Positions 624-5,686 of a stretch of 5,732 nucleotides of DNA are shown piece after piece. Positions within the stretch are counted from its first letter, which is position 1; each line of letters starts with the position of its first letter. The stretch is from Lachnospiraceae bacterium (lineage in GTDB: Bacteria; Bacillota_A; Clostridia; Lachnospirales; Lachnospiraceae): NCBI GenBank assembly GCA_017996675.1, contig JAGOGN010000105.1:1-5732 (forward strand). Reading direction: 5' to 3'. The notes beneath the pieces are model-generated. The model was not told where the DNA came from. It saw only the letters and a list, made by a program, of their open reading frames with translations, and ran no database searches. The translations under genes and the position numbers were made by a program.

Positions 624-2129
624 ATGAAAAAATTCAAGCTATACGAAAATACAAATAGAAAAAAGTTATGCCTAATCATCATAAGCTGCATTGTCCTTGC
701 TATTCTTGCAGTATCTATTACCATTTTAGTCATTCATTCAAAGAATAACAAGACATCCGTCAAAAATACACAAAGTAGCAGTCTTTCAGCTGATGAGATA
801 AAGGCAGAAAAATTGATTAAAAAAGAAGCACAAGATCCAGAAAGTTCGGTAAATACCCCGAAAGTGGAAACAGGGACAGCTGTGGATATCCCTGAGCTGC
901 TTGCTACAACTAGTGTCAAAGAACTTACTAATGTGTCTTACGGCATTGATGTCTCCAAATACCAAGGCACCATAGACTGGGCCAAGGTGAAAGCCGCAGG
1001 GATTGATTTTGCCATGATCCGTGTAGGATATCGTACTCAAAAAACCGGCATAATCAATGCTGACACGAATGCCAAATACAACATGCAACAAGCTACTGCT
1101 AACGGTATAAAAATCGGAGTTTACTTTTTTTCAACTGCAATCACTACAAATGAAGCTATCGAAGAAGCCAATTGGGTTGCTGACTATATTTCGAAATATA
1201 AAATTACCTATCCGGTTGCCTTCAATTGTGAAGGGTTTACGCAAAGCGACAATCGTCAGTATTCCCTAAGTCAATCCCTTAGAACTGATCTTGCGCTTGC
1301 ATTTATGAAACAAATTTATGACAAAGGTTACACCCCAATGTTCTATGCTTCCAAAAATGAGCTCACCAATAATTCACAATGGGATACCAACCGGATCGAT
1401 TCTACTTATAAAATCTGGGTTTCCCAGTATCCTGCCGTTCCTTATCCGCAAAAAGCAGCTTCCGATTACACAGGGACTCACGCCATGTGGCAATATACGA
1501 ATCAGGGAACGATTCCTGGAATCTCTACTCCTGTGGACGTTAACATTGCGTATTTTGGCTATGACACAGAGGCAAATTCATTGAATGGAGAAGCTCCAGA
1601 AATTGCTGCACCTGACAAAGAAGCTTTACTCAATTTTACTGCCGTAAACGAAATTGTTACCGCTAAAGACTCTACTAATTTAAGGGATATTCCAAGTCAA
1701 GACTCCACCAGCAAAATTATGGCCACCTTAACGAATGGCATGCAAGCCACTCGTGTTGGCGTAAGCACAAGCGGATGGTCCAAAATTATCTACAATGGTG
1801 TTACCTATTATGCTGTTTCAAGCTTTTTGACAACAGACCTCCAACCACCTGCTCCAGTTACTCCTGTAACTCCTGCGGATGGCTCTGCTTCAGGTGACGG
1901 ATTAACAACCGTATTTTCTCCTGTTAACGAGCTGGTTACCCCTAAAATTGAAGTGAATTTACGTACGCTTCCAAGTGTTACGAACGAAAACTCTAAAATA
2001 ATTGCAACCATTTCAAATGGCGAAAAAATTACAAGAACCGGTATCAATAACGAACTGGGTTGGTCGCGTGTTATTTATAATGGTCAAACTCTCTATTGTG
2101 TGAGCAGTTATCTAACCTTGGCAAACTAG
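624..2129 (+). CDS. Membrane-anchored GH25 muramidase (lysozyme) with two SH3-like repeats
   Basis: A 501-aa cell-surface enzyme predicted to cleave the MurNAc-GlcNAc bond of peptidoglycan. A basic N-terminus and one hydrophobic segment (about 15-37) act as an uncleaved signal anchor, followed by a Ser/Lys-rich linker to about residue 103. The GH25 domain covers about 104-313. It opens with YGIDVSKYQG (catalytic-site Asp109) and contains the beta-strand motif YPVAFNCEGF (Glu203 the likely acid), YTPMFYASKNELT (237-248), the substrate-cleft stretch IWVSQYP (264-270), MWQYT (288-292) and VDVN (Asp305). Two related C-terminal repeats (about 337-404 and 430-499), each with a VNLR/TNLR...P segment, GWS and YNG, are bacterial SH3-like modules expected to bind the wall; a Pro/Thr linker joins them. 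Residue 201 is Asn where many GH25 enzymes have Asp. The ribosome binding site GGAGA (606-610) is 13 nt from the ATG, rather far. Monocistronic. Wall remodelling or a prophage-like lysin role is possible; I see no holin or phage genes. Confidence 0.92.
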   Translation: MKKFKLYENTNRKKLCLIIISCIVLAILAVSITILVIHSKNNKTSVKNTQSSSLSADEIKAEKLIKKEAQDPESSVNTPKVETGTAVDIPELLATTSVKELTNVSYGIDVSKYQGTIDWAKVKAAGIDFAMIRVGYRTQKTGIINADTNAKYNMQQATANGIKIGVYFFSTAITTNEAIEEANWVADYISKYKITYPVAFNCEGFTQSDNRQYSLSQSLRTDLALAFMKQIYDKGYTPMFYASKNELTNNSQWDTNRIDSTYKIWVSQYPAVPYPQKAASDYTGTHAMWQYTNQGTIPGISTPVDVNIAYFGYDTEANSLNGEAPEIAAPDKEALLNFTAVNEIVTAKDSTNLRDIPSQDSTSKIMATLTNGMQATRVGVSTSGWSKIIYNGVTYYAVSSFLTTDLQPPAPVTPVTPADGSASGDGLTTVFSPVNELVTPKIEVNLRTLPSVTNENSKIIATISNGEKITRTGINNELGWSRVIYNGQTLYCVSSYLTLAN

Positions 2130-2375: not shown

Positions 2376-2885
2376 TTACACTAATCTCGATGGTATATTT
2401 TTTATTAAGTCAAAAATGTCTCTTTCCACAACATGTGGAGCAGAAAAAGGATTCACTACGATACCTACAACGTTGTTCGCATTATTTTTTGCCAAATTTA
2501 TTGCTACTAAGAAATCTTGCTGAAACTTGGAAAAATGATCGCCGTATTCCCCCATTTCTTCAACGCTTGTAAATACTGGAAAATAAAACAGATCCCCTCT
2601 TTTCAAAATATCTGGAATCATTCTAATCTTAGCCTTGGTTTGAATCGTCGTGCCGACAATATTTTCTGGATGACCATTCGTTTCGTTGATCAGGTTTTCC
2701 ACCTGGTCCAAATCCTCCTCACTCATAACTGCATTGTATGGAATCCACACCATACTATCTCTAAGGAGCCTTGCTGTCTCAAAATATTGTTCCTCGGTTG
2801 GATTTAAATGTAACATTTTCAGCGCATTTTTTAACAGCGATCCATCTTCCAAATCCTCTGCTTTCAGTTTCTTATTCTGATTCAT
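2376..2885 (-). CDS. SseB-domain family protein
   Basis: A 169-aa soluble protein that I assign to the SseB N-terminal-domain family. Supporting segments are VWIPYN (46-51), the core LFYFPVFTSVEEM (99-111), and the C-terminal strand-loop VVGIVVNPFSAPHVV (139-153), which matches the family pattern of a hydrophobic strand followed by VNPF and a short turn. Residues 1-45 form a charged, mainly helical lead-in (about 16-43), and an insertion at about 58-88 separates the first two motifs. The family is named after an E. coli gene affecting serine sensitivity. In Gram-positive bacteria its role is not established, so no pathway is assigned. The start is supported by AAGGAGG (2897-2903), 11 nt upstream. 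It is the first gene of a minus-strand pair with the small zinc-ribbon gene 18 nt downstream. No cofactor motif or membrane segment is visible. Confidence 0.75.
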   Translation of the reverse strand: MNQNKKLKAEDLEDGSLLKNALKMLHLNPTEEQYFETARLLRDSMVWIPYNAVMSEEDLDQVENLINETNGHPENIVGTTIQTKAKIRMIPDILKRGDLFYFPVFTSVEEMGEYGDHFSKFQQDFLVAINLAKNNANNVVGIVVNPFSAPHVVERDIFDLIKNIPSRLV

Positions 2886-3220: not shown

Positions 3221-3913
3221 TCAATTATCAATTGCCATTTCCAAACAAACTTCTCTTTTTTTCCAACATCTGAATCCATAAAGATCATTCAGCAAAAAAA
3301 TAACAAAATTCAAGACTACTGGTAGATACACCGGATTTTCCATGGATGCTAATACCCATAGGATAATTAGCACCATGTCGTTGGCGGCATAGCCCAGCGC
3401 ATAATAAGATGATCTCAACATGGTCAGCGCTGCTGCCAGAAAGCTTGTGGTGATAGAAATCGTGCTCAGCAAGATATTGGGCGTGTTCAGAGAAACCAGA
3501 ATATAATAAAACAGCGCTGTGACCAACCCTCCTGTGAGCAAAAGTACGACAAATTGTTTTCTTGTAAGCATCTGAATGGCAACTTCATTTCCGCTCTCGG
3601 ATGGATTCTTCATCCAGGTAATTAAAGACCAGACTGCCATTGGCAACGTCATTCCTAAGTAAGTAATCATTTCTCCCCAATACCGAAATTGCCATGAAAT
3701 AATAGCATAGAGAATACTAAAGACGATCATCAGTATTTGTGCCCAGAGATTGCCCTTTGCAGCTAGTACTAGAGATGTCACCCCCACTAAAGCGGCCACT
3801 AGCATAAGAAAATCGACCTTTCCTGTTAGGATATTGGATAATAGAATAACACCTACAGATCCAATCCAGAGCGTCCACTCTTTTTTCGTAATGGTCTTGA
3901 GCGGATTATTCAC
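3221..3913 (-). CDS. pnuC: PnuC-family nicotinamide riboside/vitamin transporter
   Basis: A 230-aa integral membrane protein of normal PnuC length with seven or eight hydrophobic segments (about 15-30, 35-52, 57-74, 83-100, 120-140, 146-166, 178-190, 196-212). Family signatures include NLWAQ (55-59), a cytoplasmic-side WM-KNP (100-104), YALGYAANDMVLIILW (171-186) and the last-helix NFVIFLLNDLYGF (202-214). PnuC proteins facilitate uptake of nicotinamide riboside, which a cytosolic kinase then traps; some relatives carry other vitamins, so the substrate is inferred. No NadR or other kinase is in the window. The start codon is GTG (3911-3913) and overlaps the end of the flavoprotein gene by 8 nt, with GAGG-type bases just upstream inside that gene. 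Translation is therefore probably coupled. The next Met (residue 37) would remove the first helix, so GTG is preferred. The C-terminus ends inside a short AATTGATA repeat. Confidence 0.88.
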   Translation of the reverse strand: MNNPLKTITKKEWTLWIGSVGVILLSNILTGKVDFLMLVAALVGVTSLVLAAKGNLWAQILMIVFSILYAIISWQFRYWGEMITYLGMTLPMAVWSLITWMKNPSESGNEVAIQMLTRKQFVVLLLTGGLVTALFYYILVSLNTPNILLSTISITTSFLAAALTMLRSSYYALGYAANDMVLIILWVLASMENPVYLPVVLNFVIFLLNDLYGFRCWKKREVCLEMAIDN

Positions 3914-4403
3914 TTTTTTTTGCCCTCACTAACTCGATTGCTTCTTTCCCTGTTAAATGTTCAATTTGAAATTCCATCATACATAAGGACTTCATCGCTG
4001 GATTAATCTCATTTTCGCGACCTTGCTCACTATCCGTTGGATGATATTTTTTTGCCAGAACATTGATTGCCTTTCTGATCTCTGATTCATTTTCAATCAT
4101 GCGAATCTTTCCAAATGCAATGACGCTTCTAAAATAGGTTGTGTATTTTTCAGGAACAATCTGATCCTGATCGACGACACAAAAAGATGCTTTCTCACAC
4201 TTTTTAATTGCATCAATTTTATGGCCACTTTTGGCACCATGAAAATATATTTTGGAATCGCAATAAACATAACTAATTGGAACAGCATAGGGATAATCTT
4301 CATCTCCAAGCAAGGCTAATACTCCGGACTTTCCTTTTTCTAATATTGCAATTGCTTCTTCCTCTTTCAAAATCTGGTTTTTTCTACGCATCTCTCTAAA
4401 CAT
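3906..4403 (-). CDS. NimA-like pyridoxamine 5'-phosphate oxidase-family flavoprotein
   Basis: A 165-aa soluble protein with the split-barrel FMN-binding fold typical of NimA and related proteins. Visible motifs are FREMRRKNQ near the start, GVLALLGDEDYPYAVPISYVY (27-47, the first barrel strands), IYFHGAKSGHKIDAI (52-66, the cofactor-loop motif), ASFCVVDQD (72-80) and PEKYTTYFRSVIAFGKI (84-100), all in the family order. Members bind FMN or a related cofactor, and some reduce nitroimidazoles. Most clostridial copies have no proven substrate, so neither nitroreductase nor PNPOx activity should be assumed. It is the first gene of an operon with pnuC (8-nt overlap). The ribosome binding site AAAGAGG (4410-4416) is 6 nt from the ATG. 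The gene is preceded by a structured leader with a terminator-like hairpin, suggesting control at the level of transcription elongation. Confidence 0.87.
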   Translation of the reverse strand: MFREMRRKNQILKEEEAIAILEKGKSGVLALLGDEDYPYAVPISYVYCDSKIYFHGAKSGHKIDAIKKCEKASFCVVDQDQIVPEKYTTYFRSVIAFGKIRMIENESEIRKAINVLAKKYHPTDSEQGRENEINPAMKSLCMMEFQIEHLTGKEAIELVRAKKSE

Positions 4404-4532
4404 CGTCTACCTCTTTCCTCTAAATTAAAAAGCGCCGGAGATTTCCATCTTCTTAGACCTAACGATAGAAATTCCGGCGATTGACCCAACTACCCGGTGG
4501 CAGATGAGTATCGTTTATTATTTAATAATTGC
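4404..4532 (-). promoter_or_regulatory. Candidate riboswitch or attenuator leader of the flavoprotein-pnuC operon
   Basis: From the predicted start near 4532 to the ATG at 4403 the RNA would carry a leader of about 128 nt. In RNA order it has an AU-rich 5' end, AACGATA (4515-4509), CATCT (4506-4502), a G-rich patch CACCGGGTAGTTGGGT, then the long terminator-like hairpin and the ribosome binding site. AACGATA is complementary to TATCGTT (4467-4461), and CATCT to AGATG (4450-4446); both partners lie in the loop or upper part of the terminator hairpin. The first pairing would enclose the 5' arm of the hairpin (an antiterminator) or form a pseudoknot with it. No known riboswitch class is confidently recognised; the NAD+-II (pnuC-motif) class is the first to test. 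Confidence 0.45.
4422..4479 (-). terminator. GC-rich hairpin plus U-tract just upstream of the flavoprotein gene
   Basis: On the minus strand CGCCGGA (4479-4473) and ATTTC (4472-4468) pair with GAAAT (4445-4441) and TCCGGCG (4439-4433) around a one-base bulge at 4440. The upper stem can add three pairs (ATC/GAT) past one mismatch. A C and TTTTTAATTT (4431-4422) follow, the classic intrinsic-terminator layout. It ends 18 nt before the flavoprotein ATG and about 95 nt after the hipA stop. It could terminate hipA read-through, act as an attenuator for the downstream operon, or both. Confidence 0.72.
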
Positions 4533-4538
4533 ACTAAG

Positions 4539-4567
4539 AATTTATCATGAAAATAGGGGGCTGTCAA
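4539..4567 (-). promoter_or_regulatory. Sigma-A-type promoter for the flavoprotein-pnuC operon
   Basis: On the minus strand TTGACA (4567-4562, perfect -35) is followed after exactly 17 nt by TAAATT (4544-4539, a 4/6 match to the -10 consensus). It lies immediately after the hipA stop codon at 4574, and transcription would begin near 4532. It makes the operon independent of hipA transcription but leaves the terminator-like hairpin inside the leader. Confidence 0.55.
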
Positions 4568-4573
4568 GGTCTA

Positions 4574-5686
4574 TTAAAGATAACAGCTCAGATCCTGATC
4601 CACAGTCTTCTTTATATCGCTGGCAATCTTTTCAGCTTTCTTTCCGTCCATTTTTGCATTCTTTGCTACTGATAATAATTCTTTCATTCCAGGATTAATT
4701 CCGTTACCATTCACTGTTGTTGCATGCTCTCCACCAAACGAATTACTATATGTTAAATCATATGCAGGGGACAATATCCAACCAGTATCCTTATAGAGAT
4801 AAGAAAAGTTTTTAGAATGATCATCTCGGTTGTGTGCAAAAACATTGAAACACATCCATCGAAAAAGCTTCTCTATTTCTTCATAGCTTTGGGTTATCTT
4901 TAATGTTAGCTGCATCAAAATATTGTAATCCAGATTCGGTATTCGATGGGAGGTCTCAAGCAGCCCGCTCACAGATACCATATGGATTTTCCGATTTTGT
5001 TCTCTATCAAATCGCTTTGTGGAAAAAAAACCTTCGCAAAATTTTGATGGCAGAAGCCTTGTTTCTGCCATAGGTAGTTTACACTTTCTTGCACAAACAG
5101 AATAATCATATTCTTCTTTTCCTATATTCTTTCTATCTATTGAAGATGGAAATTTTACAATCCATTCCGCTCCTTCAATCTCATAATTCACTTTAGGCCT
5201 TGCTCCGCCCGAGGAACCACCTCTATAGAACAGTTCATCCAATTGATCCGAATGATCGGTTTCAAACATCTTCCCACATTCTGTTGCAAGCTCATCCAGC
5301 GTCATCCCGACAACATCGGTTTTCAGTTCATTTGTTGGTCGGTATTCCAACGCACCCATACCACTTTTTCCTACAATTGCAAGTCTTGTAAGTGGACTTA
5401 CCGATGCAGGATTGATCTGATTTTTTAGTAACAAACGATCCACTAAAAGCCTTCCCCATCCATCTGGAAGGCTATCTGCAAATACACCAAACAATCCTTC
5501 AAACGGATCAAATTTTTTCGGAATAAAAACACCATCTTTTAAAGGAAGCGAGATCGGACTGATAGAAAAGCCTGATTTTAACCATTCCTCGCTATATTCA
5601 AAAGCTACAAGATGATCACTTATTTCTGCCAATGTTCCTACTTGCTTTTGCTGAAAATAGACTTCCAAATGCTTCTTATTGTTCAT
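4574..5686 (-). CDS. hipA: HipA-family serine/threonine kinase toxin
   Basis: A 370-aa protein, shorter than the roughly 440-aa E. coli HipA but with both family domains. The N-terminal domain (about 7-115) has the typical LEVYFQQKQVGTL opening, SPISLPLK (43-50), FEGLFGVFADSLPDGWG (62-78) and KSGMGALEY (107-115). The C-terminal kinase domain has the Gly/Ser-rich loop GGSSGGARPK (156-165), an ATP-binding Lys in WIVKFP (Lys178), TKRFDR (223-228), the catalytic segment NRDDHSKN (Asp288 and Asn293 aligning by motif with the DGHxKN site of E. coli HipA) and the metal-site Asp310 in SPAYDLTYS. E. coli HipA phosphorylates glutamyl-tRNA synthetase and promotes growth arrest; the target here is unknown. 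All key residues appear intact, so it is probably active. Ser158 or Ser159 in the loop are possible autophosphorylation sites by analogy. AGGAGG (5693-5698) supports the start. The partner HipB should lie just upstream, beyond the right edge. Confidence 0.93.
   Translation of the reverse strand: MNNKKHLEVYFQQKQVGTLAEISDHLVAFEYSEEWLKSGFSISPISLPLKDGVFIPKKFDPFEGLFGVFADSLPDGWGRLLVDRLLLKNQINPASVSPLTRLAIVGKSGMGALEYRPTNELKTDVVGMTLDELATECGKMFETDHSDQLDELFYRGGSSGGARPKVNYEIEGAEWIVKFPSSIDRKNIGKEEYDYSVCARKCKLPMAETRLLPSKFCEGFFSTKRFDREQNRKIHMVSVSGLLETSHRIPNLDYNILMQLTLKITQSYEEIEKLFRWMCFNVFAHNRDDHSKNFSYLYKDTGWILSPAYDLTYSNSFGGEHATTVNGNGINPGMKELLSVAKNAKMDGKKAEKIASDIKKTVDQDLSCYL

Follow-up and report, generated by a model that had tools for sequence, protein, structure and literature searches.

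A probable guanidine-IV riboswitch in front of a nim–pnuC operon from a Lachnospiraceae bacterium

The window, by which we mean the whole stretch of 5732 nucleotides analysed here, carries on its minus strand a hipA gene, a gene for a nim-type flavoprotein and a gene for a PnuC-family transporter. The hipA gene lies upstream of nim, ending at 4574, and the window stops 46 nt past the hipA start. The reading frames of nim and pnuC overlap by 8 nt. The features of the locus are:

4574-5686, minus strand: hipA (Pfam PF07804, PF13657)
4539..4567, minus strand: promoter TTGACA-17-TAAATT (4567-4562 and 4544-4539), a sequence match with TG ahead of the -10
4427..4517, minus strand: putative guanidine-IV-type riboswitch, aptamer and terminator (covariance models R1 and R2)
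4484..4509, minus strand: hairpin P1, core 4503-4499/4494-4490 and lower stem 4509-4505/4488-4484 (predicted fold)
4495..4498, minus strand: loop 1, ACCG, in which ACC (4498-4496) would supply the 5' side of the loop-loop pairing (covariation of columns 20/68)
4433..4479, minus strand: hairpin P2, the terminator stem, 4479-4464 paired with 4449-4433 with one bulged base (predicted fold, covariation)
4450..4463, minus strand: loop 2, GUUAGGUCUAAGAA, with GGU (4459-4457) predicted to pair with loop 1, and G 4452 (published numbering, conservation)
4422..4431, minus strand: U-tract of the terminator, TTTTTAATTT (sequence)
4410..4420, minus strand: ribosome binding site region, GAGGAAAGAGG (sequence)
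3906..4403, minus strand: nim-type flavoprotein gene of the PNPOx fold, 165 aa (Pfam PF12900, PF01243)
3221..3913, minus strand: PnuC-family transporter gene, 230 aa, GTG start (PF04973, 108.5 bits)

When compared with NCBIfam, the nim product scores 213.6 bits with NimIJ and 212.9 bits with NimABCDEF, both below the curated cut-offs of 270 and 260, and the pnuC product scores 64.3 bits with TIGR01528 (cut-off 42.45). The named relatives of the window genes come from Lachnospiraceae, Clostridia and their kin. Elsewhere in the window, Pfam identifies a GH25 lysozyme-like protein that also carries an SH3 domain (624-2129, plus strand), and a protein that has an SseB domain at its N terminus (2376-2885, minus strand).

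The original prediction described a promoter, a leader of about 128 nt, a strong hairpin and a U-tract 18 nt from the ATG, and all of these are borne out by the sequence and its predicted fold. The distance from 4532 to the ATG at 4403 is 129 nt, and the ATG follows the end of the U-tract (4422) by 18 nt. The segment 4533-4418 folds with -33.9 kcal/mol compared with -22.1 ± 3.2 for its shuffles (z = -3.66), none of the 200 shuffles being as low, and the terminator hairpin with its tail reaches -22.0 kcal/mol alone. In this fold the 14 nt of loop 2 are single-stranded; a simple terminator scan of the window, with a loop limit of 8, did not list the P2 terminator. The layout is thus one of two hairpins, the 3' one being an intrinsic terminator with a U-tract, as in guanidine-IV riboswitches. 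Promoter-like sites are about as frequent in the window (18) as in its shuffles (16.3 ± 3.4), so that the promoter match is weak when taken alone. It is backed by the relatives, since the pattern TTGNNN-N16-18-TANNNT occurs within 75 nt in 27 of the 36 leaders, the window among them, for which 60 nt or more of upstream sequence is available, compared with 110 of 1850 random 80-nt segments.

Two complementary segments had been pointed out as a possible antiterminator, and both matches are exact: AACGATA (4515-4509) with TATCGTT (4467-4461), and the 5-nt match of 4506-4502 with 4450-4446. Shuffling the leader segment of the window gave a match of 7 nt or more in 84 of 5000 cases. The 7-nt pairing is near complete only in the window and in two relatives, L002 and L003 (6 in each). 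Over 35 leaders (L071 and L075 were dropped, no loop string being found in them), the mean longest match is 4.00 compared with 4.04 after shuffling, and 325 of 500 shuffle sets reach the observed value. The 7-nt antiterminator, being no better than shuffled over these leaders, was therefore rejected as a feature of the family. The position of the terminator, which had been considered the stronger argument for regulation, is upheld.

Relatives of the leader were sought through the nim protein: 292 loci code for a protein related to it, and the best 80 of these were used. Within up to 220 nt upstream of the nim gene, many of these 80 loci share a common leader. Alignment A2 holds 31 such leaders; it derives from 43 regular-expression matches, six of which were judged false, leaves out seven near-identical sequences (L008, L009, L012, L014, L016, L019 and L020), and has L003 and L068 added, the latter in corrected register. 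A further alignment, A3, contains two weak minus-strand matches and repeated places. Both loops carry letters that are invariant throughout A2. The proposed structure leaves 92.0% of cells paired compared with 72.7% after shuffling, 19 of its 24 pairs show two-sided change, and its covariation score is 0.619 compared with 0.260 for shuffled alignments and at most 0.150 when the partners are slid. In P2, all 16 pairs show two-sided changes and 88.5% of cells are paired (31 sequences), and the P1 core pairs, counted apart from the lower stem, are standard in 99.4% of cases. Columns 20 and 68, one in each loop, hold AU in 18, GC in 12 and GU in 1 of the 31 sequences; this covarying pair supports a loop-loop interaction that the original prediction did not name. 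Alignment of the leaders, which had been suggested as a check, thus shows a conserved leader with covariation in P2 and between the loops (31 leaders), but not a shared 7-nt antiterminator.

A covariance model, R1, gives the window leader 87.1 bits, the window being part of its training set. In the best 80 nim loci R1 finds the element at 43 (E up to 1.8e-5), always as a single match and on the same strand as nim; A2, the training alignment, contains 30 of these 43 loci, and 13 lie outside it. One extra, weak match falls on the minus strand of L068 (E 0.16). In viral contigs, 16 stretches fit the pattern and none encodes a relative. Three loci (L038 near 4521, L048 near 4523 and L071 near 3932) have similar loop letters 3' of nim, in stretches that give no R1 match and whose 3' half could, judged by eye, form a different, overlapping terminator; in L048 and L071 the stretch precedes a MATE gene.

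Guanidine-IV riboswitches are described as two hairpins with conserved loop letters that pair loop to loop, the second hairpin being the terminator (PMC7736828). In the window, ACC (4498-4496) is complementary to GGU (4459-4457), as in this pairing. By the published numbering, the letters of the window equal those of the pairs A29-U72 and C30-G71 and of the conserved G77 named for the Clostridium botulinum RNA (PMC11611296), and those of G66, U67, A71 and G72 of the Lactococcus lactis RNA, in which G66C, U67A and G72C each abolish the guanidine response (PMC7736828). In the C. botulinum RNA the double mutant A29G/U72C restores the interaction whereas C30G/G71C does not (PMC11611296). The essential letters of loop 2 are therefore, by this numbering, present as G 4458, U 4457 and G 4452, the last six positions after the central G of GGU, where C. 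botulinum has G77 and L. lactis G72. At the position of L. lactis G62 (mutation M4), mapped by numbering only, the window has U; this G is stated to be 90% conserved and is described as less conserved (PMC7736828). Loop 2 could be read in 122 of 125 loci with the element; in 117 of the 122 all three pairs between the loops are standard, and 119 have G at the G77 equivalent, leaving five without standard pairs and three without the G.

A second model, R2, was built solely from 12 RNAs linked to SMR (SugE-like) genes, with the window excluded. Five of these genes were identified by Pfam PF00893 and seven by tblastn only; a single SMR protein, that of L122, was compared with NCBIfam and has SugE as its best match at 116.5 bits, below the cut-off of 126. 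With R2 the leader is the single match in the window up to E 10, scoring 66.5 bits (E 1.6e-16). Because R1, which had been trained on a set that included the window, was used to align the R2 rows, R2 shares structure with the window but not letters. All 24 pnuC-linked loci are matched by R2, as against none of 11 PnuC loci taken as unlinked, one of them from Escherichia coli; another of these, L151, has a weak R1 match (18.2 bits, E 0.048) and no R2 match. Searching the leader with Rfam had also been proposed, and the Rfam 15 scan of the window and eight related loci gave no match at the element.

The genes behind the element were surveyed more widely. R1 matches occur in 28 of 29 genomes reached through nim loci, 22 of 398 genomes of the phylum, 9 of 43 genomes of one class and 63 of 200 genomes of the family, these groups overlapping. 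Family searches around G426 and G029 gave 45 of 150 each, largely in the same genomes as the set of 200 and so tallied separately, and in the family of G100 the element is found in 3 of 17. The 125 loci fetched leave out 13 of the 43 matches in the nim-reached genomes and six from the family set of 200. Classified by tblastn with nine query proteins, and by Pfam for 20 downstream proteins, the first recognised downstream gene is MATE in 54 loci, part of a pnuC-containing operon in 24, nim in 21, SMR in 12, radical SAM in three and DUF1989 in one, with 10 unclassified. The nim count is inflated because nim was the criterion for choosing the genomes behind 30 of the loci (L081-L110); the other 95 give MATE 47, pnuC-containing 16, SMR 11, nim 8, radical SAM 3, DUF1989 1 and unclassified 9.

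At the 43 nim loci with the element, where nim, pnuC, MATE and SMR genes were looked for, the order is element-nim in 23, element-MATE-nim in 14 and element-pnuC-nim in six; L003, one of the 23, has element-nim-pnuC as in the window. Seven nim genomes were searched for SMR genes and none was found. Guanidine-IV partners in print include sugE, MATE and PnuC (PMC7736828). The present analysis adds nim, which is a frequent partner of the element (43 of the best 80 of 292 nim loci). The main text of PMC7736828 has no word starting with pyridox, nitroimid, flavo or oxidase, and nim may be listed in its supplementary gene table. Among the papers listed by open-access searches, none linked a guanidine riboswitch to nitroimidazole or pyridoxamine-oxidase, and the two listed papers that contain both 'guanidine riboswitch' and 'pyridoxamine' name the latter as a vitamin of the medium.

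Several single loci deserve mention. Two elements stand in tandem in one contig, 143 nt apart and with the contig ending soon after (L168 and L162; G435 C199 4380-4465 and 4609-4693). A radical SAM gene follows the element in L124 and L125 (Pfam) and in L197 (tblastn). In L099 the element is followed by a gene for a small membrane protein (772-1473, minus strand) with no Pfam or NCBIfam match, to which L222 and the second gene of L132 appear by eye to be related; this is possibly a further exporter family. The stretch right after the element resembles, by eye, the end of a MATE gene in L011 (3854-4000) and the end of an SMR gene in L131, which suggests gene loss behind a retained switch.

The PnuC proteins linked to the element share a distinctive pair of residues. 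Asp is found at positions 179 and 210 (window numbering) in all 22 examined of the 25 linked PnuCs, that is the window and 24 others, with L199, L204 and L205 left out. Both are absent from the five NR-type PnuCs compared (4QTN, E. coli and L149-L151, the last three beside a gene read as NadR-like), which have Asn, and Ala or Ser, instead; the E. coli protein aligns weakly at both sites. Both Asp residues also occur in four PnuCs of this kind that lack the element (L152, L155, L157 and L158), so that the idea of an Asp-Asp PnuC always lying behind the element was rejected; L153 and L154, which gave no tblastn match, and L156 were left out of the residue comparison. In 16 genomes, a biased sample mostly chosen for the element, all 11 PF04973 genes lie within ~0.7 kb downstream of an element, and in the sample of 398 genomes two of 12 PnuC genes above the cut-off have it, in addition to the weak match at L151. 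A pair of acidic residues might favour a cation such as guanidinium. Riboswitch-linked PnuC and MATE genes have been proposed as possible guanidine exporters (PMC7736828), and the compound exported by the window PnuC is probably guanidine or one closely related to it.

Taking these observations together, we consider the leader to be a riboswitch of the guanidine-IV class (mepA, GGAM-1) that works as an ON switch of transcription, with a probability of roughly 90%, the class being assigned by numbering, layout and partners. It is alike to the published class in its two hairpins, loop-loop pairing, terminator as second hairpin and loop letters, and in its partner genes sugE, MATE and PnuC; it differs in the U at the L. 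lactis G62 position and in having a nim flavoprotein gene first in the operon (PMC7736828). Very probably, then, the leader adds one more copy to a known class, in front of a partly published gene combination. The part of the original prediction that proposed a conditional terminator, probably a riboswitch, holds; the suggestion of NAD+, NMN or another vitamin-derived ligand, or of an undescribed class, finds no support, the leader matching guanidine-IV.

The same loop-loop mechanism might serve a variant with another ligand, either like Gd4v or specific to pnuC and nim. Gd4v is an orphan guanidine-IV variant with evidence of another ligand (PMC9788692), and so provides a precedent; the U at the G62 equivalent in the window points the same way, as does the uniform ACC/GGU pairing in all 24 pnuC-containing loci compared with 15 of 54 MATE-first loci. 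This uniformity may, however, reflect common descent, and an A-U pair is likewise described in the C. botulinum RNA (PMC11611296). Gd4v RNAs that accompany the diagnostic genes are described as always having an extra hairpin, D2, and never G at D1, where guanidine-IV always has G (PMC9788692). The placement of D1 was deduced from the text of PMC9788692 by comparing two candidate sites. We take D1 to be the G77 equivalent, because all 12 SMR-linked RNAs (and all 24 pnuC-containing loci) have G there, whereas only four of the 12 (and none of the 24) have G at the G62 equivalent; identification of D1 with the L. lactis G62 position is unsupported, as that site varies among SMR-linked RNAs. The window resembles Gd4v in overall architecture and loop-loop pairing but differs in having no hairpin atop P2 (loop 2 lacks D2 in the predicted fold), in keeping G (4452) at the inferred D1, and in an operon of nim and pnuC without the transaminase gene (PRK07324) that commonly partners Gd4v (PMC9788692). 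Together with the acceptance of the window and of every pnuC-linked RNA by R2, this makes a variant with another ligand improbable.

Still less probable, and in our view very unlikely, is that the hairpin works without a ligand, as a constitutive terminator of hipA or a simple attenuator with nim and pnuC expressed by leakage. The end of hipA is indeed close upstream on the same strand, but a promoter lies between it and the hairpin, the element accompanies nim, MATE, SMR and PnuC genes, and the conserved loop letters are needless for a plain terminator. The role as hipA terminator, which had been named as one outcome that would overturn the prediction, is disfavoured because the element tracks nim, lying upstream of it on the same strand at 43 of 80 loci, while tblastn found no HipA homologue at any of the 80 (up to 4 kb on each side). 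A riboswitch for NAD+, NMN or another vitamin cofactor can be given almost no weight. It would fit the PnuC-family gene in the operon, and NAD+-II riboswitches precede pnuC in Streptococcus (PMC8632094), a likeness in gene context to the window. As described, however, their two stems are separated by a bulge and the RNA may form a pseudoknot that takes in the ribosome binding site (PMC8632094), a layout other than kissing loops on a terminator; no NAD+ family appeared among the Rfam 15 matches of the window up to E 5, in a library that may or may not include the NAD+-II model; the same element precedes SMR, MATE and DUF1989 genes; and the window PnuC differs from the five NR-type PnuCs at two sites. 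NAD+ or NMN is also unlikely because the association with PnuC is already published, with guanidine export proposed.

For the guanidine-IV class, guanidine is reported to stabilise the loop-loop structure and so to hinder full closure of the terminator stem, making an ON switch (PMC7736828), and we infer that the window copy behaves like the published members. The dissociation constants in print for guanidine are 150-250 uM. Here the ligand, the ON direction and the mechanism are taken from the literature on those members, and the element, its covariation, the SMR-linked match and the gene neighbours were computed in this work. Transcription would start near 4532. With no ligand, P2 would close completely and act as an intrinsic terminator, halting RNA polymerase near 4422. 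Once guanidine is bound, loop 1 would pair with loop 2 (ACC with GGU), the linker between the hairpins would come under strain and the outer part of P2 would stay open, with polymerase reading into nim and pnuC.

It is conceivable, if doubtful, that the riboswitch, nim and the Asp-Asp PnuC form a detoxification module in which the nim product reduces an N-oxidised guanidine (e.g. hydroxyguanidine) to guanidine, which PnuC then exports; if true, this would give a new substrate to both the nim-type flavoprotein and the PnuC subclade. An unannotated leader, not reported by the Rfam 15 scan, can be placed with high probability in a known class, and the class of the element means that an annotation of the pnuC genes behind it as nicotinamide riboside importers should first be tested. 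The assignment points to two candidate gene functions: the PnuCs of the Asp-Asp subclade may export guanidine, and nim-type flavoproteins may have a role linked to guanidine. If the leader is indeed a guanidine-IV riboswitch, the bacterium could switch on its transporter and flavoprotein genes when guanidine accumulates.
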